A stretch of DNA of 43,769 nt from Clostridia bacterium (GCA_024693105.1 JAILLO010000029.1:1-43769); one strand, 5' to 3'. Positions 5,895-32,231 are shown, counted from the first letter of the stretch. The notes: generated by a model from the letters alone, not told the origin. A program made the numbers and translations.

Positions 5895-6707
5895 ATGGCC
5901 AAGAAACAAGTTAACAAGGATGCATGGCTTGCAACCTACGGCGATATGATTACTCTGATTCTGGTGTTCTTCGTTTTGCTGTATTCGATGTCCTCAATTG
6001 ATGAGGAGAAGTACAGACTTTTAGTAAAAGCGTTTACGGCGGATCCGGAGACTCTGGAGCAGATTGCCATGGAAGAAACGGAAGAAAGGGCAGAGACACT
6101 TGAAACGAAGCCGGGAGCAAAAATGGGCTCGGCAGTCGATGTTGATGCTAAGGAAATAGAAGACCTCGAACAGCTTTATCAGTATTTACAGCAGTATGTT
6201 CAGGAGAACAATCTTGAATCTTCCGTAGCGGTTGCAAAGACCGACAATATGGTATATATCAGGTTTGTTTCGACCTTGTTCTTTGAGCCTGACAAGGCAG
6301 TGCTCAAACCGGGGGGCGAAGGAATTCTTGATGACCTTGCACCGGCAATGGCTTCGGTCGAAAATGTGGCAGAGGTGTATAGGATAGACGGACATACGGC
6401 AGAGGCTGCGGGAAGCTCCACCGATGACAGGGCTCTCTCCACAGACAGAGCAAATGCGGTTCTCAAATATCTTGAGGAAAATTATATCAGCGATCCGTCA
6501 AAACTGGTGGCATCGGGATTTGGACGCTACAGACCGGTGGCTCCGAACGATACTGAAGAAAATATGGCGCAGAACAGAAGAGTTGAGATTCTTATATCAA
6601 AGACTGACGAGGTTCAGGATGCGCTTGCAGAAATATACAAACAGCTGGACGGAAGCGGAGGCACTGAAGAAGCTGAGGCCTCCGAAGAAGGCGGAGATTC
6701 GCAATAG
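5895..6707 (+). CDS. motB: Flagellar motor stator protein MotB
   Basis: MotB anchors the stator to peptidoglycan and supplies the ion-carrying aspartate. The 270 residues hold one membrane segment (about 18-34) preceded by the functional Asp17 in ATYGDMITLILVFFVLLY. A plug/linker rich in Glu follows, then an OmpA-like peptidoglycan-binding domain (about 118-236) with IDGHTAE (164-170), LSTDRANAV (181-189) and QNRRVEILI (227-235). The acidic tail (TEEAEASEEGGDSQ) is not conserved in the family. No fliL gene follows, unlike many related clusters; 90 bases separate it from fliM. Confidence 0.96.
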   Translation: MAKKQVNKDAWLATYGDMITLILVFFVLLYSMSSIDEEKYRLLVKAFTADPETLEQIAMEETEERAETLETKPGAKMGSAVDVDAKEIEDLEQLYQYLQQYVQENNLESSVAVAKTDNMVYIRFVSTLFFEPDKAVLKPGGEGILDDLAPAMASVENVAEVYRIDGHTAEAAGSSTDDRALSTDRANAVLKYLEENYISDPSKLVASGFGRYRPVAPNDTEENMAQNRRVEILISKTDEVQDALAEIYKQLDGSGGTEEAEASEEGGDSQ

Positions 6708-11810: not shown

Positions 11811-12887
11811 TTGGCTGAAGCAAATAAGACCGAAAAGGCCACTCCCAAAAAGCGAAAAGACCAACGAAAGAAAGGTAATACCTTCCAAAGTAAGGATGCA
11901 GTAAGCGTTGCGGTGGTTCTTGTAGGATTCGTACTTCTGATGAAGCTTGGAAGCTTTATTGTATTGCAGCTGGTTGATGTTTATGAGGACCAGCTTGCGC
12001 TTGCAGCAGATACGACAGTGCTGACGGTTGCCGCATGCGGGGTTGTTATGAGAAACATAGTAATTACCCTGTTTATATGTACCGTTCCGCTTCTTCTGAT
12101 GATATCGCTTACGATTATCATCACATCCGGTGTTCAGACAAAGTTTCTTTTTTCGCCGGAGCTTATCAAATTCAAGTTTAACAGAATTGACCTGTTGCAG
12201 GGCATTAAGCGAATGATTTCGCTCAGGTCGATCGTTCAGCTTATAAAATCAATTTTAAAGATACTGGTGATTTTCGTCTTAATATACAGCAGTATCACGG
12301 GACTTTTGAAAGTTGCACCGGACATGCTTTCGGCAAGTCTGGGTAATAATATAGACTATATGCTTGATACCATCTGGTCGATGGTTATCAAAATCTGTGT
12401 TCTTTCGGTCGGCATCGCCGTCATTGACTGGGCATACCAGAGATATGACTACGAGAAAAAGCTGATGATGACCAAACAGGAGGTCAAGGACGAATACAAA
12501 CAGACAGAAGGAGATCCTCTGATAAAGGGTCAGATCAGACAGCGCCAGCGTAAGATGAGTATGAATCGTATGATTCAGCAGGTTCCGGGCGCAGACGTAA
12601 TCGTCAGAAACCCGACGCATTTTGCAATTGCACTAAAGTACGATCAGAATAAAGACCCTGCACCGATTGTTCTGGCAAAGGGCCAGGATTTGGTGGCAGA
12701 GAGGATTATAAAAGTTGCAGAGGAAAACGATATTCTCATGATGGAAAATCCGCCTCTTGCAAGAAGCCTCTACAAGGAGACGGAGGTGAACGGCTATGTT
12801 CCTACGGAATTCTACGGAGCGGTTGCCGAAGTGCTTGCATGGGTATACAAGCAAAAAGATATTAAGATAGAAAAAAGGGCTGATTAA
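11811..12887 (+). CDS. flhB: Flagellar export switch protein FlhB
   Basis: FlhB controls substrate choice of the export gate and cleaves itself. The 358 residues start with a basic KATPKKRKDQRKKG segment, then four membrane helices, and a cytoplasmic C-terminal domain with the autocleavage motif NPTH at residues 267-270 (VIVRNPTHFAIALKY). The start is TTG, six bases after AAGGGGGGA; no better ATG is available. The stop codon shares one base with the flhA start (TAATG). Confidence 0.96.
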   Translation: MAEANKTEKATPKKRKDQRKKGNTFQSKDAVSVAVVLVGFVLLMKLGSFIVLQLVDVYEDQLALAADTTVLTVAACGVVMRNIVITLFICTVPLLLMISLTIIITSGVQTKFLFSPELIKFKFNRIDLLQGIKRMISLRSIVQLIKSILKILVIFVLIYSSITGLLKVAPDMLSASLGNNIDYMLDTIWSMVIKICVLSVGIAVIDWAYQRYDYEKKLMMTKQEVKDEYKQTEGDPLIKGQIRQRQRKMSMNRMIQQVPGADVIVRNPTHFAIALKYDQNKDPAPIVLAKGQDLVAERIIKVAEENDILMMENPPLARSLYKETEVNGYVPTEFYGAVAEVLAWVYKQKDIKIEKRAD

Positions 12888-14956
12888 TGAAATTACTAAA
12901 GAATGCGGTAGTAATATTTGTAATAAGCGTAGTGGCGCTGATCATCATACCGCTGCCGACACCGATACTGGACTTCATGTTCATTACCAACATCGCGCTA
13001 TCTTTGATCATTCTTTTAACAACGATGTATATAGGGGGACCACTGGAGTTTTCAATCTTCCCCTCGATGCTGCTGATTACTACTCTTTTGCGGCTGGCAC
13101 TTAATATTTCTTCCACACGTCTTATTTTGTCGGAAGGAGGAAATGCGGGGAAAGTCATCGAGACCTTCGGAAGCTTTGTTCTCGGGGGAAATGCGGTAGT
13201 TGGCTTCATTGTCTTTCTCATAATTATCATTGTTCAGTTCGTCGTAATCACCAAGGGTACTGAGCGTATCGCGGAAGTTTCGGCAAGATTTACTCTCGAT
13301 GCAATGCCGGGAAAACAGATGGCGATTGACGCAGACCTTTCTTCCGGAATTATATCGGAGCAGGAAGCAAAGGCACGAAGAGAAAGAGTTCAAAGAGAGT
13401 CGGAATTTTACGGGGCCATGGACGGAGCTACAAAGCTCGTCAAGGGCGATACAATAGCATCAATAGTTATAGCGGCAATCAATCTTATAGCCGGTTCCAT
13501 TATCGGTATGGTGCAGGGTGGCATGGATTTTTCAACCGTCCTTTCGGTTTATTCCATCGCAACCGTAGGTGACGGTCTTGTCAGTCAGTTGCCTGCGCTT
13601 ATGATTTCAACCGCAACAGGTATGATTGTTACAAGAGCGGCCGCAGAAGGCAACCTCAATGAGGATGTCAAAAAGCAGTTCCTCTCCCAGCCTAAGGTTC
13701 TTCTTATGGCAGGCGCGGTAATTCTGCTGCTTGCTGTGATTCCGGGATCGCCAAAAGCACAGATTGTTGTACTTTCGGCAGTGCTTATCACTCTTGGAGT
13801 GATGCTTCTGACTTCCGAAAGGAAGAAAGAAAAAAAGGCCGAAACCGAAGAAACCGACCAGATGCAGATACAGCCGGAACAGATCAGCGAGACGGATTTT
13901 TACAGAAACATCGACAATGTCTACAATCTGCTTGGTGTTGAAGCCATCGAAATGGAATTCGGTTACTCGCTTCTGCCTCTTGTAGACGAAGGCAGCGGCG
14001 GAAGCTTTATTGAAAGAATTGTTATTTTCAGAAAGCAGTTTGCACTCGATATGGGTGTTGTTATACCTACGGTCAGACTTCGTGACAACGGCCTGATCAA
14101 TCCAAACCAGTATCTTATAAAGATACGCGGTGAGGAGGTTGCAAGCGGGGAAGTGCTTGTTGATTATTATCTGGCGCTTGATCCGGGTAACAGTACCGGA
14201 CCGATAGAAGGTATCGATACTGTTGAACCGGCATATAAGATACCGGGCAAATGGATTACCGAATCCGAAAAAGAAATAGCAGAAATCTACGGATATACCG
14301 TTATTGACGCATTATCCGTAATTGTCACCCATATGTCGGAGGTTATAAGGCATCACATCCACGAGCTTATCAGCAGACAGGACATCAACGTGCTTCTGCA
14401 AAATGTCGAAAAGAACAACAAGGCAATTGTTGAGGATGTTGTGGGCAAGGTTATTTCCGTGGCAGATCTTCAGAAGATACTTGTAAATCTCCTCAAAGAG
14501 GGCGTTCCTATCAGAGATATGGAAAGCATTCTCGAGGCGGTCGGAGATCAGGGAACCATGGTAAAGGATACCGACATGCTGACAGAATATGTACGTCAGA
14601 AGCTTAAGAGAACTATTACCAGAAAGTACACCGACGGTGCAGCACTGAAGGTAATTACACTGGATCAGAACATCGAAAATGCAATACTGAATTCAGTCAA
14701 GAAGTCGGAACACGGCACATATCTTACACTCGATCCGCAGACTGTCCAGGCAATTGTGGAAGCTGTGGCAGGCCAGATGGAGAAACTGAAGGATATTCTT
14801 CAGACACCGATTATTCTGACTTCTCCGATAGTCAGATTATATTTCAAGAGACTGATAGATCAGTTCCAGCCGAATATCGTTGTTTTATCTTTCAACGAAA
14901 TCGATACAGATATTCAGATTCAGGCTGTAGGTGCGGTTCAGATAGGCGACAGATAG
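12887..14956 (+). CDS. flhA: Flagellar export platform protein FlhA
   Basis: FlhA forms the nonameric ring that receives export substrates and uses the ion gradient. The 689 residues comprise about eight N-terminal membrane helices (1-305) with the FHIPEP family signature around EFYGAMDGATKLVKGDTIA (173-191). A charged linker (KKEKKAETEETDQ) and the four-part cytoplasmic domain follow. Length is normal. In many Firmicutes flhF and flhG come next; here 67 bases separate flhA from the sigma factor gene instead. Confidence 0.97.
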   Translation: MKLLKNAVVIFVISVVALIIIPLPTPILDFMFITNIALSLIILLTTMYIGGPLEFSIFPSMLLITTLLRLALNISSTRLILSEGGNAGKVIETFGSFVLGGNAVVGFIVFLIIIIVQFVVITKGTERIAEVSARFTLDAMPGKQMAIDADLSSGIISEQEAKARRERVQRESEFYGAMDGATKLVKGDTIASIVIAAINLIAGSIIGMVQGGMDFSTVLSVYSIATVGDGLVSQLPALMISTATGMIVTRAAAEGNLNEDVKKQFLSQPKVLLMAGAVILLLAVIPGSPKAQIVVLSAVLITLGVMLLTSERKKEKKAETEETDQMQIQPEQISETDFYRNIDNVYNLLGVEAIEMEFGYSLLPLVDEGSGGSFIERIVIFRKQFALDMGVVIPTVRLRDNGLINPNQYLIKIRGEEVASGEVLVDYYLALDPGNSTGPIEGIDTVEPAYKIPGKWITESEKEIAEIYGYTVIDALSVIVTHMSEVIRHHIHELISRQDINVLLQNVEKNNKAIVEDVVGKVISVADLQKILVNLLKEGVPIRDMESILEAVGDQGTMVKDTDMLTEYVRQKLKRTITRKYTDGAALKVITLDQNIENAILNSVKKSEHGTYLTLDPQTVQAIVEAVAGQMEKLKDILQTPIILTSPIVRLYFKRLIDQFQPNIVVLSFNEIDTDIQIQAVGAVQIGDR

Positions 14957-15023
14957 GGAGTCGCGGGCACACAGACCTAAAAATGAAGTGGCGGGCGCAA
15001 TGTAAGCGAAACAGGAGCGGCAG

Positions 15024-15791
15024 ATGGAAGAAGTTCTTAGGGAAGAAGACAACAATTACATAGAGCTTTGGGAACCGTATCTCAAGTCGGGCAGCATTGA
15101 AGACAGAAACGATCTTGTTCTCAGATATACCGATCTGGTCAAGCGGATAGTGCTGCGTTTTCGTGGCAGCTACAGCAATTATGCTCAGATGGATGATATG
15201 ATTAATCAGGGAATAATTGCGCTTATTGACGCGGTGGAGAAGTTCGACCCGCATCTGGGCAACAAATTTGAAACCTTTGCTTCAGTAAAAATCCGCGGAG
15301 CGGTTATCGACTTTATGAGAAAGCAGGACTGGGTTCCCAGAAACCAGCGCAATCTTGCAAAGGAGCTTGATGATGCATATGGGGCGCTTTATTCCGAGAC
15401 CGGCGAAGAACCGACAAAGGAAGAACTGGCAGACTATATGGGAATAACTCCGGCAGGTCTTGAGAAAATACTTGAGCAGAGGCAGAACTCAATGGTTCTT
15501 TCGTACGAGGAAGCTATCAACGAGAAGATGATGGTAGCGGCTCCGATTGTAGAAAACAGGAGCGATAACGAAACGCCGGAGGGTGTCCTTCTTTACGGAG
15601 AGCTCAAGGAGAAGCTTGCAGAGGCAATTGACCTTCTCAATGAAAAAGAGCGTCTTGTCGTTACACTTTATTATTACGAAAATCTAAAACTTAAAGAAAT
15701 TGCAGAGGTTATGGGAATCACCGAGTCGCGAGTTTCACAGATACATTCGGCATCGATTGTAAAGATGAAAAAAAGACTTGTTGATTATTGA
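15024..15791 (+). CDS. fliA: Flagellar RNA polymerase sigma factor FliA/SigD (sigma-28)
   Basis: This sigma-70 family factor directs transcription of late flagellar and chemotaxis genes. The 255 residues contain region 2 (LVLRYTDLVKRIVLRF, MINQGIIALIDAVEKFDP, FETFASVKIRGAVIDFMRKQ), region 3 (GEEPTKEELADYMGITPAG) and region 4 with a helix-turn-helix (LNEKERLVVTLYYYENLKLK, then EIAEVMGITESRVSQIHSAS). The VPRNQRN patch after region 2 is typical of the FliA/WhiG group. A candidate target promoter is seen at 22293-22319. No anti-sigma gene flgM is seen in the window. Confidence 0.95.
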   Translation: MEEVLREEDNNYIELWEPYLKSGSIEDRNDLVLRYTDLVKRIVLRFRGSYSNYAQMDDMINQGIIALIDAVEKFDPHLGNKFETFASVKIRGAVIDFMRKQDWVPRNQRNLAKELDDAYGALYSETGEEPTKEELADYMGITPAGLEKILEQRQNSMVLSYEEAINEKMMVAAPIVENRSDNETPEGVLLYGELKEKLAEAIDLLNEKERLVVTLYYYENLKLKEIAEVMGITESRVSQIHSASIVKMKKRLVDY

Positions 15792-16796: not shown

Positions 16797-17507
16797 ATGA
16801 TCAGAGGATTTTATTCGGGCGCATCGGGCCTGATTGCACAGCAGTCGAATCTTGATGTTGTGGCAAATAATATGGCAAATACGGGGACTGTGGGCTATAA
16901 GCCGCAGAAAGCAAATTTTCAGACGCTTCTTTATGAAAATGTCAACGGAGCACTTCCGCCGATCAGTACGGGACACGGTACAAGAATTCAGCAGGTGACT
17001 ACAAATTTCAAGGCAGCCAATCTGCAAAAGACAGATGCGGAGCTTGACTTTGCGATAGTTGACAACGACGGATTTTTCGCTATAGAAACACCGGATGAGG
17101 AAGCAAATATTTATTATACGAGGGCAGGAAACTTCCAGTGGCTTGTTGACGGTGATACAAGGACTCTTGTGACCGGCAACGGTGAATATGTTCTTGACGC
17201 GGACGGCAGTCACATCGAGCTTGACGCGGATCAGGAAATTGAGCCGGGCATGATAGGTGTTTTTGACATGCCGAACCCATACGGGATGATGCCTGTAGGC
17301 AGCAACAGATATGCACTTACAGATGCTTCCGGAGAGGCTGAGGTTGTCGAAAATCTTAAGCCGGTGCAGGGCTATCTTGAAAATTCAAAGACAGATATCG
17401 CAGCGGAAATGGTTAAAATGATTGAAGCTTCCAGAGCTTTTTCAATGAACGCAAAGGTTGTGACTACAGCAGATGAAATAGAGCAGACGGTTAATTCGCT
17501 GCGTTAG
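16797..17507 (+). CDS. flgG: Flagellar basal-body rod protein, FlgF/FlgG family (second copy)
   Basis: This is a 236-residue axial rod protein. The N terminus MIRGFYSGASGLIAQQSNLD, VVANNMANTGTVGYKPQKAN and the C terminus TDIAAEMVKMIEASRAFSMN, AKVVTTADEIEQTVNSLR carry the rod/hook family coiled-coil motifs. It is a paralogue of the preceding gene, with a different middle (DAELDFAIVDNDGFFAIETP). The ATG follows AGGAGG. A small TTCCC-TTCC-GGGAA hairpin (16698-16711) lies in the 101-base gap upstream. The FlgG name follows from gene order and is less certain than the family. Confidence 0.86.
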   Translation: MIRGFYSGASGLIAQQSNLDVVANNMANTGTVGYKPQKANFQTLLYENVNGALPPISTGHGTRIQQVTTNFKAANLQKTDAELDFAIVDNDGFFAIETPDEEANIYYTRAGNFQWLVDGDTRTLVTGNGEYVLDADGSHIELDADQEIEPGMIGVFDMPNPYGMMPVGSNRYALTDASGEAEVVENLKPVQGYLENSKTDIAAEMVKMIEASRAFSMNAKVVTTADEIEQTVNSLR

Positions 17508-17600
17508 TAAAACCATCTGACTGAAATTCAGGGATAAAGTTGCAATTGATATGTGTAAAAAGATTTCTTTGTGTTTGCATTATTTTTCTAGGAGGAAATC

Positions 17601-19049
17601 ATGAGCGAAGAAAAATTACAGACGGAACAGACAGGACAGACGGGACAGCCGGAACAGGAACAGCAGCAGACCGTCAATCATTCCGTTGAAGTTGAAATAG
17701 ACGGAAATGGTATGAAGGGCTACATTAAAATTGTTAAGGGAACACCGGATGCTCCGCCAATTGAAATTTCGGATCTGAGGAATGCGCTTAAGGAGAACGG
17801 AATTGTGTACGGAATTAAGGAATCCGCAGTTGAGAAACTGGCGGCACGTCCTATTTACGGCATCAGAATCGAAGTCGCCGCAGGACTCCCGACAGAGGAC
17901 GGTAAGGACGGGTTTATAGACTTTTTTGTAAAGAAGGATTCGGAATACAAGCCGGATCTTCCGCAGGAAGGAACAATCGATTACAAAAACCTGGATTATT
18001 TCCAGATGGTAAAAGAAGGCCAGATGCTTGCTGCAATTACAAAGGAGACCGAAGGAACAGCGGGAATGGATATTCTCGGAACAGAACTGCCGCCGAAACC
18101 GGGCAGACCGGTTCACAGCCCGAGAGGAAAGAACACATCCTTCAACGAAGACGAAACCGTACTGTATGCGGACTGCGACGGTATGGTAAGATTTACGGGT
18201 CAGACAATCGACATAAATGATATTATGCGTATTGTTACCGATGTAAATCAGAAAACGGGAAATATAAGATTCACAGGCGATGTTATAATCGACGGCGATG
18301 TATGCTCCGGCTACAGCATTGAAGCGGGCGGAAACGTCGTTATAAAAGGCATGGTTGAAGGCGCGCATATCGAGGCGGGCGGAGATGTTCAGGTAGGAAA
18401 AGGAATTAACGGCGAAAGCGGTGACGTCACTGTTGATGTCGGAGGCACTCTTCGCTGCAAGTATATCGAAAATGCATGTGTAAATGTTCAGGGCGATATA
18501 ATTGCGGATTACATTATCGACAGCCGTGTTACCTGCATGGCAAATATTGATATAAGTAACGGCAGAGGCGTTCTTGTAGGGGGCGAAACAAAGGTTAAGG
18601 GAGAACTTTCCGCAAAGGACGTCGGAAGCGAGCGTGAAAAAGTAACAAAGATTGAGATTCTCGGTCAGGAGAATCTTGATTCCGAGTATCTGATAAGCCT
18701 GAAAAACCAGAGAGAAGAACTCAACGGTACGCTTCAGCAGCTTCAGCAGACATATAAAAAATTCTATTCGCCTATAAAGACGGATGACGATCCGTACAAG
18801 GAACAGCTTCTTGTTATAAGCAAGCAGATGGAGCTTATACAGCCGAAGCTGAATGAGCTTAATGCCGAAATCGCTTCAATTCAGCACAACTGGACGGTAG
18901 ATTATATCGGTGCGGTTGTCTGCAAGAGAAAGATGTTTCACGGTGTAAAAATCTTTTTCGGTGAAGCTTTGTTCACATTTAATCTGGACAGTCTTGAGAG
19001 ATGCCGCGTATGCTGGGCAGAAGGAGAAATTATTCAGCAGACGCTGTAG
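17601..19049 (+). CDS. fapA: FapA family protein (DUF342), flagellar assembly protein A
   Basis: FapA proteins have an N-terminal alpha/beta domain and a polymerising right-handed beta-helix. Their role in flagellar assembly or surface sensing is only partly known. In these 482 residues a Gln-rich leader (about 1-25) is followed by the FapA N-domain and by beta-helix repeats rich in Gly and Val/Ile: GNIRFTGDVIIDGDVCSGYS, IEAGGNVVIKGMVEGAHIEA, GGDVQVGKGINGESGDVTVD. A coiled-coil segment (about 365-430, KNQREELNGTLQQLQQTYKK) precedes the C-terminal part. The ATG follows TAGGAGG. It sits 93 bases after flgG and 30 before the PilZ gene. Confidence 0.9.
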   Translation: MSEEKLQTEQTGQTGQPEQEQQQTVNHSVEVEIDGNGMKGYIKIVKGTPDAPPIEISDLRNALKENGIVYGIKESAVEKLAARPIYGIRIEVAAGLPTEDGKDGFIDFFVKKDSEYKPDLPQEGTIDYKNLDYFQMVKEGQMLAAITKETEGTAGMDILGTELPPKPGRPVHSPRGKNTSFNEDETVLYADCDGMVRFTGQTIDINDIMRIVTDVNQKTGNIRFTGDVIIDGDVCSGYSIEAGGNVVIKGMVEGAHIEAGGDVQVGKGINGESGDVTVDVGGTLRCKYIENACVNVQGDIIADYIIDSRVTCMANIDISNGRGVLVGGETKVKGELSAKDVGSEREKVTKIEILGQENLDSEYLISLKNQREELNGTLQQLQQTYKKFYSPIKTDDDPYKEQLLVISKQMELIQPKLNELNAEIASIQHNWTVDYIGAVVCKRKMFHGVKIFFGEALFTFNLDSLERCRVCWAEGEIIQQTL

Positions 19050-19079
19050 AAAACATTTTTTCGGGGAGAGTGGAAAACT

Positions 19080-19730
19080 TTGGAATCTGCAATTATATCA
19101 AAATTCAAAAAAATGGAGCTCGTTGACCTTGAAGGAAGAACTCTTCTGGCTACCACAGATGTCAGGCTTGATGAAGAGACTAACAGAATTCAGCTCCACG
19201 GAAGAGATTTTGACTGCATAGATGCCGATACACTTGTCACGGCAGTAGGATATATGGATGACGGTATTCTTCTGATGGATGCTGTTGTTTCGATTTCGAC
19301 ACGGATGCAGGCAAATATAGAAATTATTAAAACTCATGAAAAGCAGGAAAGGCGTTCTTCACTGAAGGTGAGGACAAGTTTCAAAACAAGGATCATAAAG
19401 GTCAGAATAAATCGTCCGAATGCGAAGATTATGTATCAGAATACCGATATAGAAACGAAAGATCTGAGCATGGGCGGCATAGGCTTTTTCTCAGACAGGC
19501 CGTTTTTCAAGAACCAGCTTGTTGACATTCTTATGAATCAGGTTAAGGCAGGGATGACACTTCGTGCAAGGGTGCTCAGACGGTCGGAACTTAAGGACTC
19601 CGGATGGAGATACAGGTACGGCTGTTCCTTTGTAAATCTCACACCTGAGGACGAAAGAGCCATATGCGAATTTGTTTTCAAGGCGCAGCTGATAGAGTAT
19701 CAGAGGCTTAAGGAGCTTGAAATCGAATAA
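19080..19730 (+). CDS. YcgR-like PilZ domain protein, probable c-di-GMP receptor
   Basis: The 216 residues show an N-terminal YcgR-like beta domain (about 1-85) and a C-terminal PilZ domain (about 88-210). The second c-di-GMP motif D/NxSxxG is intact as DLSMGG (128-133). The first motif, normally RxxxR, reads R-R-S-S-L-K (91-96), so the last Arg is replaced by Lys, which may weaken ligand binding. YcgR/DgrA-type proteins brake the motor when c-di-GMP is high. The start is TTG at 19080 behind GGGGAG; no ATG fits. Placement inside the motility operon supports motor control, but binding is not shown. Confidence 0.85.
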   Translation: MESAIISKFKKMELVDLEGRTLLATTDVRLDEETNRIQLHGRDFDCIDADTLVTAVGYMDDGILLMDAVVSISTRMQANIEIIKTHEKQERRSSLKVRTSFKTRIIKVRINRPNAKIMYQNTDIETKDLSMGGIGFFSDRPFFKNQLVDILMNQVKAGMTLRARVLRRSELKDSGWRYRYGCSFVNLTPEDERAICEFVFKAQLIEYQRLKELEIE

Positions 19731-19753
19731 AGGGCAGAAGGAGATACCGGGTT

Positions 19754-20530
19754 ATGGCAAAAGTTATAGCAATTACAAATCAGAAGGGCGGAGTCGGTAA
19801 GACTTCAACCGCAAGCGCACTTGCAAGCGGACTTCAGGAGAAAAAATACAAAGTTCTGGCAATAGACCTTGACCCACAGGGCAACCTGGGTTTCTGTCTT
19901 GGGGCAGAAACGGAAAATGCGCCTACTGTTTACGACCTGATGAAGGGCGCGGCGAGTATAGAGGATGTTATTCAGACCAATAACGGCATCGATATATTAC
20001 CCGCAAATATACTCCTTTCCGGAGCGGAACTCGAATTCAGCAATATAGGGCGTGAATTCATGTTAAAGAAGGGAATCGCTCCTGTAATGGATGACTACGA
20101 TTTTGTGATTATAGACACGCCGCCGGCACTCAATATTCTTACGGTAAATGCATATACGGCGACGGATTATCTCATCATACCGATGGTTCCGGAAATACTC
20201 AGTCTTTTGGGAATTTCCCAGCTGACGGAAACGATAGAACTTGTTAAGGGCGTCTATAATCCAAAGATAGAGGTTCTTGGAATCCTGCTCAACAAGTATG
20301 ATGCGAGGAGGACTCTGACAAAGGACGTCGAAGAAATGGCACAGATGATAGCAAGACAACTGGGGACGAAGGTTTTTACAACTAAGATCAGGGCTTCTGT
20401 GGCAGTTGCAGAGGCACCGGCACACGGGCAGAGTGTTTTCAGATATTCGCCTAAATCCAATTCGGCAAAGGATTACAGGCAGTTTATCAAGGAAATTATT
20501 TCCCAGAAAGGAATGAAAGATGGCAACTAA
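19754..20530 (+). CDS. ParA/Soj-type ATPase
   Basis: This 258-residue P-loop ATPase has the deviant Walker A KGGVGKTS (K11, K16), the Soj-type switch IDLDPQGN (37-44) and Walker B DFVIIDTPP (about 115-123). The DPQGN form marks it as ParA/Soj rather than MinD/FlhG, and no FlhG N-terminal activation helix or MinD C-terminal amphipathic helix is evident. ParA homologues position plasmids, chromosome origins or chemosensory arrays (ParC, PpfA). Here it lies in a motility operon without a parB. Its end overlaps the next gene (ComFB family) by 11 bases, pointing to a functional pair. A role in placing flagella or receptor arrays is inference. Confidence 0.88.
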   Translation: MAKVIAITNQKGGVGKTSTASALASGLQEKKYKVLAIDLDPQGNLGFCLGAETENAPTVYDLMKGAASIEDVIQTNNGIDILPANILLSGAELEFSNIGREFMLKKGIAPVMDDYDFVIIDTPPALNILTVNAYTATDYLIIPMVPEILSLLGISQLTETIELVKGVYNPKIEVLGILLNKYDARRTLTKDVEEMAQMIARQLGTKVFTTKIRASVAVAEAPAHGQSVFRYSPKSNSAKDYRQFIKEIISQKGMKDGN

Positions 20531-21053
20531 AAAGAATAATAAGACAGAGCATGTACTCAAGCTTATTACGAAAAATCAGGAAGAACCTGAAGAGTTTACT
20601 CAGCAAGAACAGACTGCTCCCGAGGAATTTCCGGAGGGGGTTCTTGTAGAAAAGATAGAGGCCGAGGATGATGCAGATGAACCTGCAGGGGGGGAACTTG
20701 ATATGGAGATAGATAAGGCACCTGAGCAGAAACCGGGAGAAGAATTCGAATTTCAGCCTGAGTTGACGCAGGAGAATATTGAAGACAAATCAAAATTGCT
20801 TAACCTTGCCGAATTACTGACAGAAGAACTTCTTCCTCAGGTTGTAAGAAGGATGCGTGTATGCGATTGCAAGAACTGTACAAATGATATTCTTGCGCTG
20901 GCACTCAATTCACTGCCGCCTAAATACGTTACTACAGACTCCGGCAAGCAGTACAAAATGCTTGAATTGTATAGAGCTCAATACGAAACGGATGTAATAG
21001 CCGCGCTCACAAGAGCATGTGTAAGGGTAAAAGGCTGCCCAAGACATGCCTAG
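20520..21053 (+). CDS. comFB: ComFB-family protein, possible cyclic-dinucleotide receptor
   Basis: The 177 residues comprise a disordered acidic N-terminal part (about 20-90) and a C-terminal ComFB domain (91-177). Family features are LLNLAELLTEELLPQVVRRM, the Cys cluster VCDCKNCTNDILALALNSLP (C115, C117, C120), PPKYVTTDSGKQYKM and the end VKGCPRHA (C173). Cysteines in such positions are thought to bind a metal in the family. ComFB proteins have been reported to bind c-di-GMP or c-di-AMP and to act on motility or competence in other bacteria. The start ATG lies inside the end of parA, with AAAGGAATGAAAG upstream. The long acidic extension is not part of the core family. Confidence 0.82.
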   Translation: MATKKNNKTEHVLKLITKNQEEPEEFTQQEQTAPEEFPEGVLVEKIEAEDDADEPAGGELDMEIDKAPEQKPGEEFEFQPELTQENIEDKSKLLNLAELLTEELLPQVVRRMRVCDCKNCTNDILALALNSLPPKYVTTDSGKQYKMLELYRAQYETDVIAALTRACVRVKGCPRHA

Positions 21054-21086
21054 GCCGACGGCGGGAAGATTTCAAGAGGTGAGATT

Positions 21087-21713
21087 TTGTTTAAAAGTTA
21101 TGATGATTTAAGCGACGTTCAGATTGACGTATTGCGTGAGATTGGTAATATAGGCGCGGGAAATGCTGCTACAGCACTTGCTACTATATTAAATGAGAAA
21201 GTTGATATCAGTGTTCCGAAAGTCAGAATTTCAGGCTTTGACGAAGCTGTAAATGCATTGGGCGGAGCAGAAACTCTTTCTGTCGGCGTTCTCGTGGACT
21301 TTTTCGGCGAAGCCAGAGGTATGATGATGTTTCTTCTCAAGCTGGATGAAGCGAAGAATATCATGGACGTTCTGATACATGACGATGATGGAGAAACTGA
21401 CGAGAACGGACTTAGTGAAATGAAGCTTTCTGCAATTAAGGAAGTCGGAAATATCCTTTCCGCATCGTACATAAATTCACTTTCCGTCTTGACGGGACTG
21501 ACCATAAACGTTTCAATACCGGGGGTTGCAATTGATATGGTCGGGGCGCTTATGGACGTGCCTATTATTGAATTCGGAAGCATAGGCGACAAGGTTATGT
21601 TTATTGAAGAAAGCTTTCTCGGAGAAACAAATGATATTTCCAGCAATATTATAATGTTTGCGGAGATGGAAACACTTAAGGTTATCATGGAAAGATTGGG
21701 ACTGGAATTATGA
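21087..21713 (+). CDS. cheC: CheY-P phosphatase CheC
   Basis: CheC removes phosphate from CheY-P and binds CheD in adaptation. The 208 residues contain both active-site helices, VLREIGNIGAGNAATALATI and AIKEVGNILSASYINSLSVL, each with the E-x2-N catalytic pair. It has neither the SpoA domain nor the linker of FliY, so the operon holds two CheY-P phosphatases. The start is TTG at 21087 behind AAGAGGTGA. The stop overlaps the cheD start in ATGA (21710-21713), matching the known CheC-CheD interaction. Confidence 0.93.
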   Translation: MFKSYDDLSDVQIDVLREIGNIGAGNAATALATILNEKVDISVPKVRISGFDEAVNALGGAETLSVGVLVDFFGEARGMMMFLLKLDEAKNIMDVLIHDDDGETDENGLSEMKLSAIKEVGNILSASYINSLSVLTGLTINVSIPGVAIDMVGALMDVPIIEFGSIGDKVMFIEESFLGETNDISSNIIMFAEMETLKVIMERLGLEL

Positions 21714-22198
21714 GTGAAAAGTTGGTTGTTGGGATTTCTGACTACAAAAAGGCAAAAGGCACCGGGATGCTGGTGACCTACGCTTTGGGGTCCTGTGTCG
21801 GAATTTGCCTGTATGACAAGCAGGCAAAGGTCGGGGGTCTGTCTCATATAATGCTTCCTGACAGCGCAATGTTTGCAAACGTGGAAACAAACAGGATGAA
21901 GTTTGCAGATACGGCGTTGCCGGATTTGTATGCCGAGCTGAAGGCGATGGGGGCAAATCCTGCGCGTCTGACTGCAAAAATAGCAGGGGGAGCACAGATG
22001 TTCCAGACTTCGGCGTCAAGCAAAATCGGACAGATTGGCGAAAGAAATGTAAAAATGGTAAAGCAGGTGCTTGCGGCACTGAAGATTCCTATTATCGCCG
22101 AAGATACGGGAGCAAATTACGGACGCACGGTCTTTTTTGACGTGGCGGACGGTTCCGTTAAGATTCAGTCATTGAACAGGATTGTAAGAGAAATGTAG
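21710..22198 (+). CDS. cheD: Chemoreceptor glutamine deamidase CheD
   Basis: CheD deamidates glutamines of chemoreceptors and is held by CheC when CheY-P is high. The 162 residues contain the catalytic region VTYALGSCVGICLYD with T23, C29 and H46 (GGLSHIMLPDS), and the family segment ARLTAKIAGGAQMF. The start overlaps cheC. It is the last gene of the long + strand operon; the terminator follows 20 bases later. Likely targets are the two receptors encoded downstream. Confidence 0.96.
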   Translation: MSEKLVVGISDYKKAKGTGMLVTYALGSCVGICLYDKQAKVGGLSHIMLPDSAMFANVETNRMKFADTALPDLYAELKAMGANPARLTAKIAGGAQMFQTSASSKIGQIGERNVKMVKQVLAALKIPIIAEDTGANYGRTVFFDVADGSVKIQSLNRIVREM

Positions 22199-22218
22199 TC
22201 AGCATAAAAAAGACAGAA

Positions 22219-22254
22219 GGTGTACAGATGTAAATGTCTGTACACCCTTTTTTT
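22219..22254 (+). terminator. Intrinsic terminator of the flagellar/chemotaxis operon
   Basis: GGTGTACAGA (22219-22228) pairs perfectly with TCTGTACACC (22237-22246) around an 8-base loop, followed by C and seven T residues. It lies 20 bases after cheD and closes the long operon. Confidence 0.95.
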
Positions 22255-23108: not shown

Positions 23109-26100
23109 ATGTTAAATAACATGAAAATGAAGAAGAAACTGGTAACAGCCTTTGTTATTGTGGGCATCTTTTCCTTGATAGTCGGCATTTTCGGAATTAC
23201 GAGATTAGCACAGGCTGACAAGGAAATTACGTCACTTTATGATCAAAGCGCGAACCCTGCGATGAGATTGCAGATAGTACAGTCGAATCTGCTGAATATC
23301 GGAATGAATTATATGAAGCTTATGTATCAGCCGGACCAGAGCCTGGTTGAGTCGAGACTTTCCGAGATTACAGCATGGACTGACGAAGACAAAGCCATTC
23401 TTAACGAAATCGGGGAGATGAATCTTTCTTCAGAACAGAGGGGTATGTATGATCAGTTGCAGTCAAATCTCACGGACTACAGGGGAACACGTGCGGAGAT
23501 TGATGATTGTATGAATGCCGGAAATCTTGATGGCGCCAAAAAGTATATGTCTGCTTTCGAAAAGAAGAGAATTGCAGTAGATGAAAGCATTGCATCGCTT
23601 GTCGCTATGAAGCATGCGGAAGCGGAAGCGGTTATGGCTGACAATGAGACAGCATACTCAGCATCGAGAACCATAATGATTGCCGCATCGGCAATTGCCG
23701 TTATACTTGCAATAGTTGCAGGCGTTGCCATTGCAAATGCAATTTCGGTTCCGCTTGTTGCAGTGTCAAATGCACTTGAAAAGATAGCGAAGACAGGTGA
23801 TACGGATGTGGAAATTCCGAAAAACGACGGCAAGGACGAAGTTGCTGAGCTTGCAAGAAACAGCGCTTTGCTTGTAGACGCGATGTCAAAACAGGCAGAG
23901 GTTGCCGAAAGTATCAAGGAAGGCGATTTCAATGTTGACATCGAGCCGCGTTCCGAAAAGGACAGCGTATCAATAGCACTTCGTGATGTTATCGCAACTC
24001 TCGGTGAACTTCAGGCTGAAGCAAAAGCCGTTGCGGAAGATGCGGAAAGAGGAGTTTTCGAAAAGAAGATACAGGTCGAAGCTTTCCATGGTGCGTACAG
24101 AGAACTTATGGAAGAGTTCAGTTCAACCATAGAAATTATGACAGACAGAATACACAGTATCTGCACTGCTATCGATGCGCTCGGAAGAGGTATTCATCCT
24201 GAAGTTCCGAGTGAACCGGACAAAGGTCTTTACGAAGAAGCAAGACAGTCGATTATGGCATGTACAAATTCAATCGAAAAGCTTATAGAAGACGCAAATA
24301 CACTGACAGCAGGCGCACTTGCAGATGATTTTACAATCAGAGCGGATGCTTCGCGCCACAACGGCTCTTATGCGGAACTTATTGAAAAAATCAACGAAAT
24401 GCTTGCTGCAGTCGGAAACAAGGCAATCTGGTACCAGGATATTCTCGATGCCATCCCAAGCCCGATTCATGTAACGGATCAGAACAAGACGGTAACACTT
24501 ATCAATACTGCTGCTGAAAGAGACCTTCTCGGCAAGTTTGCAAACAGAAACGAAGTTATCGGAATTACGGCTTACGGAAACCTTTCAGATGTTATTGACA
24601 ACTTAAACGCACAGGGTGAAAAGGAAGGCATTGTAAGGGACGGTGACCGTATTGAGCGCATGACGGTCGATTTCCTTAAGGATCCAGACGGAGAAGTTAT
24701 CGGTTATGTAGAAGCTTCAACCGATCTGACAGGTATTCTCAGAAAAGACGAATACACAAGAGGCGAGGTTGCAAGGTTTAGTGAAAACCTCAAAAAGCTT
24801 GCAGCAGGAGATATGGACTTTGACCTTAGCATAGAACCTGCGGATAAGTACACAGAAGATGTTGCCGCACAGTTCTCCGAAATCGCTTCCAATATGGTTA
24901 TTGTAAAAGAAGCTATCGACGCACTTATTGAGGATGCCCGTGCAATGACAGACAACGCAGTAAACGGACAGCTTGAAAAGAGAGCCGACATTACAAGACA
25001 CGGCGGAGAGTTTGCGGTTGTTATGGAAGGCTTCAACAAGACTCTGGATGCCATTGTTGCACCTATCAATGAAATAAAGGCTTCCCTTGCAGAGCTTTCA
25101 CTCGGAAATCTCAACGCAACCATAACTACAGATTACAAGGGTGATTATGCTACAATGAAGGATGCTCTTAACGGAACAGTCAAAAATATCAAAGCGGTTG
25201 TTTCAGAGATATCGCACGTTCTGGCAGGCATCGGAGAAGGCAATCTGGATCAGAGTATCAGCGGCAACTATGAAGGAGACTTTGTGGAAATCAGAAATTC
25301 CCTTACAAGTATCCTAAGCTCGCTGAACGATATAATGAAAAATATCAACAATGCGGCTGAGCAGGTAACAGGCGGAAGCAAACAGGTATCCGACGGAAGC
25401 CAGGCTCTTTCGCAAGGTTCAACAGAGCAGGCAAGCGCACTTCAGCAGCTTACGGCTTCAATTGCGGAGATTGCAAATCAGACAAAGCAGAATGCGGTTA
25501 ATGCAAATCAGGCAAGCACACTTGCAGAGGAAGCAAAAGAAAGTGCTATCAAGGGTAACGAGCAGATGCAGTCGATGCTTGACTCCATGGAGGCAATTAA
25601 CGAATCATCGAACAATATTTCAAAGATTATCAAGGTTATTGATGACATTGCATTCCAGACAAACATTCTTGCGCTTAATGCCGCAGTTGAGGCGGCAAGA
25701 GCAGGTGAGCACGGCAAGGGCTTTGCGGTAGTAGCCGAAGAAGTAAGGACTCTTGCGGCAAGAAGTGCGGAAGCGGCTGCAGATACTACAAATATGATTC
25801 AGAGCTCAATTCTGAAGGTAAGCGAAGGTACGCACATTGCAAACGAAACAGCCGTTGCTCTTGACGAAATCGTTGCAGGCATTGACAAATCCGCAGAGCT
25901 TGTCAAGAAGATAGCAGATGCTTCAAATGAACAGGCATCGGGTATCAGTCAGATTGACAAGGGCCTTTCGCAGGTATCACAGGTTGTTCAGCAGAACTCG
26001 GCAACTTCTCAGCAGAGTGCCGCAGCTTCCGAGGAACTTTACGGTCAGGCAGAAATGCTCAAGCGCATGGTTGCAACATTCAAGCTTGCCGAGGAAAACA

Positions 26101-26231
26101 GACTTGCAGGACCAAATCCTGCTCTGTTGTCACCGAATGAACCGGCACCTCATATCGATATGGACTTTGAACCGGACGATGAGGATAAGCCTATGATTAT
26201 GCTTGAGGATTTTGACAACGATAAGTATTAA
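23109..26231 (+). CDS. Methyl-accepting chemotaxis protein with PAS domain (1040 residues)
   Basis: This is a membrane chemoreceptor. Transmembrane helices lie at about 12-31 and 188-212, enclosing a roughly 155-residue four-helix-bundle type sensor region. Behind the membrane come HAMP-like repeats (about 210-435), one PAS domain (about 440-545, [20 protein letters not shown]), further HAMP-like units (550-715) and the signalling domain (740-985), with the hairpin tip around [20 protein letters not shown]. The acidic C-terminal tail ends in DNDKY. The ATG follows AAAGGAGG. It probably works with CheW encoded just upstream; the ligand is unknown. Confidence 0.95.
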
Positions 26232-31004: not shown

Positions 31005-32231
31005 TTACTCGTCATCCCTGATGCAGTCAAGGAATTCCATGAAGTCCTCAAATTCACTCTGTATGAATTCGTACATGATGGGATCCTTGAATTCGAATTT
31101 TGCGATTGATACTACATTTCTTGAAACACTGCAGTGCTTGAGCGATGTCTCAAGTGAACGTATTGATGAAAGCTCATTTGAGGAAATCAGGAGCTGACCG
31201 AAACTTGTGACATAAAACATGCCGAAGACATCGTCGCTCAGCCTGAATACATCCGAATCCACATGGTTGTTATTTTTGTTGAAGAACATGAAAAGCTTGC
31301 CGCTCGGATGAACAGTCATCATGGCATCGATTGTAAGACTTGCGGCCTGCCTGTCAAATTCGTCCGGTCCGATCAGTATGTCATATACCGATATAAATTC
31401 CGGCTTTGAGAGCTTCATTGCGGCTTCGACGGAAGAAATACCAAACGAGGAGCTGCAGCTTGCGGAGATGATTTTTTTGCCCATGGTTGAAACGCTTGCA
31501 ACGGTAAGCAGGTATTTGGAATTCAGCTCAAGAATCGATTCGCAGAGAAAGGCCTCGGTAAGGCGGTGCCCGTCTTCGGTGTATGTATTGCTGCTGCGGT
31601 CATAATCTATCGTATTCATGCAGAATGTGCATGCGGGAGTGTTCGAAAAAACGTCAAGCTCCTCATCTGTAAGTCCGGCAGCATCAGGATGAAGCAGATG
31701 GCGGGCTCCCTGAAAGTCCTTGCCGGCACAGCGCATGAGAAAATAGTTGATGGCATGGTGCGTAGACATTATGGGGCAGCAGAGCTTTTCTTCGAAATCA
31801 AAATAATCTTTTCCGGTAATAAGATCGCTGCGCTCTATCATAAATGAGAATTCGGCAAAACGGTCGGGAAGAGGCTGTTTGCGGGCCTTGTTAAACTCGA
31901 CCATGTGGTTTATAAATGAGCAGAATTCTCTTTCGGTAACATTGACCTTTGAACCTCCGAGACCACCGAGAAGGGAGCCTTCAAGAGCTTCAAGCTGCTC
32001 AGGGTTGTCGCCCGTGATGCTTTCGTATGATTCGAGGCCGAATTCTTCGGCATCAGCATAAAAGAACTGATGATAGTCGGTTTCCCCGTCGCCCAAAAGC
32101 CAGTGTACATGGGCGGTAAAAACACCCATGAGCCTTGTATCTGTAATATATCCGCTGATATATTTCTTTTCTCCGGTCGTGTCCGGGGAATCAAGCCCCC
32201 CTTTAATAAGTGTGAATGGATAATTTTTCAA
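31005..32231 (-). CDS. Unrecognised Cys-rich soluble protein (408 residues)
   Basis: I do not recognise this family. The protein has 408 residues and neither a signal peptide nor a membrane segment. Ten cysteines are scattered along it, including C151-C152 (EEKLCCPIM) and a CxxC at 201-204 (PACTFCMNTIDY). The N-terminal part is rich in acidic and aromatic residues; the C terminus ends IQSEFEDFMEFLDCIRDDE. It is the only minus-strand gene in the window, convergent with the second chemoreceptor and divergent from the SAM riboswitch. The start is TTG with AAGAGG about nine bases upstream; no in-frame ATG fits. A CxxC could mean metal or redox function, but no function is assigned. Confidence 0.85.
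   Translation of the reverse strand: MKNYPFTLIKGGLDSPDTTGEKKYISGYITDTRLMGVFTAHVHWLLGDGETDYHQFFYADAEEFGLESYESITGDNPEQLEALEGSLLGGLGGSKVNVTEREFCSFINHMVEFNKARKQPLPDRFAEFSFMIERSDLITGKDYFDFEEKLCCPIMSTHHAINYFLMRCAGKDFQGARHLLHPDAAGLTDEELDVFSNTPACTFCMNTIDYDRSSNTYTEDGHRLTEAFLCESILELNSKYLLTVASVSTMGKKIISASCSSSFGISSVEAAMKLSKPEFISVYDILIGPDEFDRQAASLTIDAMMTVHPSGKLFMFFNKNNNHVDSDVFRLSDDVFGMFYVTSFGQLLISSNELSSIRSLETSLKHCSVSRNVVSIAKFEFKDPIMYEFIQSEFEDFMEFLDCIRDDE

Follow-up and report, generated by a model that had tools for sequence, protein, structure and literature searches.

Among the flagellar genes of a Clostridia bacterium (GCA_024693105.1 JAILLO010000029.1:1-43769), we found that a ParA-type ATPase and the ComFB-family protein encoded directly after it form a conserved pair, apparently an undescribed two-gene module of many motile gut and sediment Clostridia. 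The window, meaning the whole 43,769-nucleotide stretch that was analysed, lies on contig C7, part of a draft genome of 1.9 Mb from the family Anaerovoracaceae. Adjacency of the two genes is conserved, the ComFB protein bears a motif specific to ParA-linked proteins, the ATPase (hereafter flagellar ParA) is strictly linked to flagella and, among the flagellated Clostridia sampled, never found with FlhF, and the genome holds a separate Soj-ParB pair. We consider it probable that parA-comFB encodes a positioning ATPase with its activator and cargo adaptor, standing in for FlhF/FlhG in determining flagellar place or number. No paper describing a ParA-ComFB pair was found in the open-licence literature, judged by titles and abstracts. 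The two genes and the parts of the ComFB protein are as follows.

19754..20530, plus strand: parA, encoding flagellar ParA (258 amino acids, aa), a Soj-like deviant Walker A ATPase (Pfam AAA_31, E 1.1e-53).
20520..21053, plus strand: comFB (177 aa), comprising N-terminal motif, linker and ComFB domain (PF10719 at residues 95-171, E 4e-19, 70 bits; AlphaFold2 model).
20520..20573, plus strand: N-terminal ParA-partner motif of ComFB, MATKKNNKTEHVLKLITK, residues 1-18, with invariant residues and a predicted helix at 8-17; proposed ParA ATPase-activating peptide.
20574..20789, plus strand: acidic linker of ComFB, residues 19-90, low-confidence and probably disordered (predicted local distance difference test score, pLDDT, mostly 49-67 in AlphaFold2).
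20790..21050, plus strand: ComFB domain, residues 91-177 (pLDDT about 84-98 per block; Foldseek).

A Pfam search detected ComFB in 32 of 99 Anaerovoracaceae genomes, a set that is a sample of the family rather than a census; as elsewhere in this analysis, the genomes are related and many are drafts. The comFB genes occurred in recurrent contexts: pilZ-parA-comFB-cheC-cheD within the flagellar operon, which is the arrangement of the window (type A); parA-comFB facing cheD-cheC in convergent orientation where the flagellar operon ends (type B); cheY-comFB-cheC-cheD-cheW without parA (type C); and a short comFB standing alone (type D). ComFB proteins adjoining flagellar ParA begin with M(A/P)(K/R)(K/R)(S/T)(N/S)KT(E/A/S)(H/Q)V(L/M)xL(I/L) or a close variant, which can be shortened to M(A/P)(K/R)(K/R)xNKTxHV(L/M)xLI. 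Across 24 aligned ParA-linked proteins, picked via their ComFB domain or neighbouring ParA and not via the motif, M1, K8, T9 and V12 are invariant despite a mean column identity of only 20%. Every ComFB or other partner adjoining flagellar ParA with a readable N terminus carries the motif. It was found in none of 44 ComFBs without ParA, which comprise types C and D plus 30 stand-alone proteins from other Clostridia and are mostly 90-130 aa long.

A scan of 84,980 species genomes had the ComFB N-terminal motif as its sole pattern. The motif matched 281 stretches, 201 of them encoding ComFB relatives. Among the best 80 of these 201, ranked by similarity to the window ComFB, parA lies directly upstream in 79, as against 0/44 motif-less ComFB loci (Fisher p about 6e-33, which is indicative only because the genomes are related). 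Chance adjacency of the two genes was rejected on these counts. The adjacency was found in Anaerovoracaceae, Lachnospiraceae, Oscillospiraceae, Anaerotignaceae and Acutalibacteraceae, and the pairing that the initial annotation had noticed in one strain is thus conserved well beyond it. The sole exception among the 80 loci (L119) retains pilZ and comFB with an intact motif and appears to lack almost all of parA; by eye, the intervening sequence at about 5901-5990 resembles the first parA codons with a deletion or misassembly after them. In two family genomes contig ends split the pair, and ParA is placed close to the end of a different contig: L016 has the motif on a contig that starts just before it, and the contig of L018 is cut within comFB. 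No natural ParA-ComFB fusion was seen among the loci read.

An atypical locus separates the motif from the domain behind it. The gene following parA at L099:2344-2904 (genome G358) retains the motif as MARSTKTKHVM, while its C-terminal domain has no cysteine and bears only weak likeness to ComFB (profile score 21.3, E 0.001; the highest of 30 shuffles scored 16.0). Since motif and parA persist where the ComFB domain has decayed, it is on sequence evidence the motif, more than the domain, that stays with ParA. The initial annotation had overlooked this motif, which supplies the first evidence from sequence on the way in which ComFB would make contact with ParA. Its region carries a net charge of +1 to +5 in 95 of 97 N-termini and 0 in two. 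The predicted helix at residues 8-17 is of modest confidence (pLDDT 62-67, AlphaFold2), and the linker varies widely in length between orthologues. The well-predicted domain matched ComFB (4wai, E 8.6e-6) and CdgR with c-di-GMP (8hja, E 3e-4) in Foldseek. Within the domain, C115, C117, C120 and H176 are nearly invariant among the 24 ParA-linked proteins, and the window protein also has C173. The zinc site of Bacillus subtilis ComFB consists of C25, C27, C30 and C88 (PMC4381287). The three clustered cysteines correspond to three of these, and with H176 in the tail a CCCH zinc site is likely in the window protein.

Flagellar ParA is clearly distinct from other ParA proteins. The window protein shares 56-77% identity with 20 relatives in the family; after a gap, other ParA proteins including Soj follow at 35-46%. 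In a tree, one branch (support 100/99) divides 43 flagellar ParAs from Soj, represented by 20 proteins of the family, and 30 positions tell the two apart, such as DTPPALNxLT versus DCPPSLGLLT. KGGVGKT, DLDPQGN and DTPPA are conserved across 96 orthologues, which identifies them as deviant Walker A ParA ATPases. The initial annotation was right that no ParB adjoins this parA: none is encoded in the block, and the genome's ParB lies beside its own Soj on contig C24 rather than pairing with flagellar ParA from afar. Because that Soj-ParB pair exists elsewhere in the genome, flagellar ParA is a dedicated paralogue, and it forms its own orthologous group; the same pair and the separation of the two groups in the tree led us to reject it as the chromosomal Soj. 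We recognised Soj, a MinD-like protein, a Mrp-like protein and flagellar ParA as ParA-family members in the genome, and no FlhG. Among solved sequences the nearest to flagellar ParA were ParA/Soj, MinD was far weaker and FlhG was not named (E up to 1e-10; no FlhG model was run). Its affinity to ParA/Soj and the absence of FlhF make it unlikely that the protein is FlhG. By eye, its C-terminus has no obvious membrane helix.

The distribution of flagellar ParA points to the flagellum. It is present in 21 of 23 FlhA-positive and 0 of 76 FlhA-negative Anaerovoracaceae genomes; the two FlhA-positive genomes lacking it are drafts of 77-86% completeness. Together with the location of the block at the end of the flagellar operon, this bears out the earlier assignment to a motility locus and fits the positioning role proposed there. 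FlhF exceeded its cut-off neither in the window genome nor in any of the 99 family genomes. In a second set of 391 Clostridia genomes, FlhA occurs in 147, FlhF in 134 and flagellar ParA in five, all five being flagellated and without FlhF; one of the five belongs to a family (f31) in which other members do have FlhF. Combining both sets, flagellated Clostridia have ParA only in 25 cases, FlhF only in 133, neither in 11 and both in none (p about 1e-21, inflated by relatedness). A recent review describes strong conservation and joint transcription of flhF and flhG in flagellated bacteria (PMC12826062); in the window operon, fliA directly follows flhA and neither gene lies there.

On this basis we propose a mechanism in which binding, ATPase stimulation, cargo and ligand are what we infer. 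ParA dimers with bound ATP would be located on the nucleoid. The basic helix of ComFB (residues 1-18) would extend on its flexible linker, bind a ParA dimer and set off ATP hydrolysis, as ParB, ParG and PomX do with their N-terminal peptides. At the opposite end, a dimeric ComFB domain would dock onto cargo. The likeliest cargo is the basal body of the flagellum, and the pair would thereby govern flagellar place or number in Clostridia without FlhF/FlhG. In the lineage of the window, a cyclic dinucleotide may tune the pair through the ComFB domain. ParA/MinD activators are unrelated proteins with a common short, positively charged N-terminal stretch on an interaction domain, exemplified by ParB, MinE, ParG and PomX and probably by TlpT and McdB (PMC7993993). 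ComFB matches this anatomy with its basic N-terminal peptide, predicted helix, linker and separate domain, which suggests an activator function.

Similar designs are found in PomZ-PomX, McdA-McdB, PpfA-TlpT, Soj-Spo0J and ParF-ParG, each a ParA-type ATPase whose unrelated partner joins a short, basic peptide at its N terminus to an interaction domain. The present pair differs in that the cargo domain is ComFB, unlisted among ParA partners in the literature reviewed, and in a motif of its own, NKTxHVLxLI. Like FlhG, flagellar ParA is a ParA-superfamily ATPase encoded in a flagellar operon, and the pair occurs where FlhF is missing; unlike the FlhF/FlhG system, it is closest to Soj and has ComFB for a partner. 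With ParC/ParP and PpfA/TlpT it shares a location beside chemotaxis genes, but the partner is not ParP or TlpT, and in Anaerovoracaceae its presence tracks flagella rather than chemosensory clusters. It also differs from ParABS, as the block holds no ParB CTPase. Domain and fold are common to window ComFB, B. subtilis ComFB (4wai) and cyanobacterial ComFB/CdgR (8hja), and the clustered cysteines of the B. subtilis protein are retained. The known ComFB/CdgR proteins function in competence, pili or cell size. No association with ParA is reported for them, and they lack the motif in the aligned stretches.

Several points weigh against a role in flagellar placement. The co-occurrence counts are phylogenetically non-independent, and FlhG was assessed only via its partner FlhF and the ParA-family listing of one genome. 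Neither FlhF nor flagellar ParA was found in nine sampled flagellated Clostridia from beyond Anaerovoracaceae or in two fragmentary flagellated genomes within that family. Because these 11 have neither, the function may be dispensable or have further substitutes. The nine outside genomes (G108, G145, G186, G251, G279, G283, G389, G440 and G465) may place flagella by other means or have missing data. Finally, the commonest neighbours of the pair are cheC and cheD, and chemoreceptor arrays would fit equally well as cargo.

This last point raises the alternative that the pair serves to position or partition chemoreceptor arrays, as ParC/ParP and PpfA/TlpT do, with ComFB docking on array proteins or CheC/CheD and ParA spacing the arrays on the nucleoid. 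The alternative stays alive because of the cheC and cheD neighbours, which adjoin the pair in the window's clade and, at many other loci, face it in convergent orientation. TlpT, the suggested activator of an array-positioning ParA, has a similar basic N-terminus (PMC7993993), and comFB genes without the cysteines occur in chemosensory clusters even where flagella are lacking, implying that the domain itself may have a part in chemosensing. However, type C genomes have neither FlhA nor flagellar ParA, and ten non-flagellated genomes with short comFB lack flagellar ParA while having a chemosensory cluster wherever the surroundings could be read. We favour the flagellum over the array as cargo because of the exclusion with FlhF, seen in all sampled flagellated Clostridia having it, and because flagellar ParA, like the motif, is absent from these flagella-less chemosensory genomes. 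Some loci in flagellar surroundings also lack cheC/cheD nearby, including L085, L101 (beside a filament-cap gene) and L138 (beside flhB). Overall, we consider array positioning fairly unlikely.

The flagella-less clusters deserve a description of their own. L093, L094, L021, L023-L025 and L027-L030 have the order cheY-comFB-cheC-cheD-cheW, with FlhA absent and the ComFB zinc cysteines lost. From their gene content, L093/L094 and kindred clusters are read as a chemosensory system that operates without flagella and has a ComFB of its own. The neighbours of the L094 cluster are housekeeping genes that give no hint of its output. Pili were considered as a link, and no sign of them was seen among the neighbours of one cluster.

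A second alternative, along the lines of the initial annotation, is a switch governed by a cyclic dinucleotide: ComFB that has bound its ligand would, together with PilZ, activate or inactivate ParA, and placement would answer c-di-GMP or c-di-AMP. Cyanobacterial ComFB/CdgR binds both c-di-AMP and c-di-GMP (PMC12313861), and PDB 8hja is CdgR with c-di-GMP. The window genome encodes 18 GGDEF domains and one c-di-AMP cyclase domain and probably makes both messengers. Window ComFB retains the segment LPPKYVTTDSGKQY, resembling stand-alone ComFBs, and the domain is well kept within its clade. PilZ and ComFB, which the initial annotation saw as two receptors bracketing the ATPase, are present there, but this arrangement does not extend to the module at large. 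PilZ adjoins parA only in the window's own clade, and the full c-di-GMP-binding set (RxxxR plus D/NxSxxG) is absent from all 25 PilZ orthologues: the second arginine is always lysine (RRxxxK) and DxSxxG is intact. Moreover, 73 loci outside the clade have a degenerate version of the ComFB segment TTDxGKQY, which follows KYV. Because of these features and the decayed domain of L099, cyclic-dinucleotide sensing does not belong to the always-kept core. Second-messenger control is plausible for the window pair and not general, and we regard the switch as a rather improbable account of the module. The broader claim that the pair replaces FlhF/FlhG across many Clostridia, with a cyclic-dinucleotide receptor that is itself the ParA activator and a second messenger directly setting flagellar place or number, is offered tentatively as a possibility on the doubtful side.

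It is also conceivable, though distinctly unlikely in our assessment, that the pair acts through a regulator on flagellar gene expression or basal-body number rather than position, as FlhG does with its partners. FlhG affects number and expression in several bacteria (PMC12826062; PMC10241942), and CdgR works partly through the transcription factor DevH (PMC13075795). No constantly linked regulator gene was seen around the pair, where only homologues of window genes were scored. That ParA and ComFB merely share an operon without mutual contact is highly improbable, given a pair kept in five or more families and two operon arrangements and a motif exclusive to ParA-linked proteins that outlasts the ComFB domain.

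The remaining features of the locus are consistent with a flagellar operon ending in this block. Its genes run fliK-like, flgD, flgE, motAB, fliM, fliY, cheY, fliO, fliP, fliR, flhB, flhA and fliA, followed by two flgF/flgG-type rod genes, fapA, pilZ, parA, comFB, cheC and cheD, the last five forming the 3' end.

12887..15791, plus strand: flhA then fliA, with a gap of 67 bp and no flhF/flhG between (PF00771 match at C7:12929-14914; sigma-70 domains in fliA).
19080..19730, plus strand: pilZ, PilZ-domain protein, 216 aa, TTG start (Pfam PF07238, E 1.5e-11; alignment of 25 orthologues).
21087..21713, plus strand: cheC, CheY-P phosphatase family (Pfam PF04509).
21710..22198, plus strand: cheD, receptor deamidase family (Pfam PF03975).
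22219..22248, bidirectional: intrinsic-terminator-like hairpin at the operon end (12-pair stem, T runs on both sides).

All five genes of the block named in the initial annotation were located and matched in Pfam, and the claimed overlap of parA and comFB is exactly 11 bases (20520-20530). A single transcript, also claimed, fits the sequence without being proven: because no terminator-like site was found on the plus strand from 17400 to 22218 and a strong one lies at 22219-22248, the genes through cheD may be transcribed together up to that hairpin. The unit downstream starts with cheW and, judged from its translations, continues with a methyl-accepting protein, cheB and a large cheA-like gene. 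The methyl-accepting protein (23109-26231, 1040 aa) has apparent repeated internal modules ahead of its signalling domain. At 31005-32231 on the minus strand, a 408-aa open frame with a TTG start had no Pfam match.

A recent review raised flagellar placement without FlhF/FlhG in enteric bacteria as an open question (PMC12826062). The parA-comFB pair is a concrete candidate for this role in a large group of anaerobes, including gut Flavonifractor plautii, Enterocloster, Lacrimispora and Oscillibacter. ComFB proteins are widespread and few of their partners are known; the family would thereby gain a likely one, and ParA a new type of activator recognisable via a ten-residue motif.

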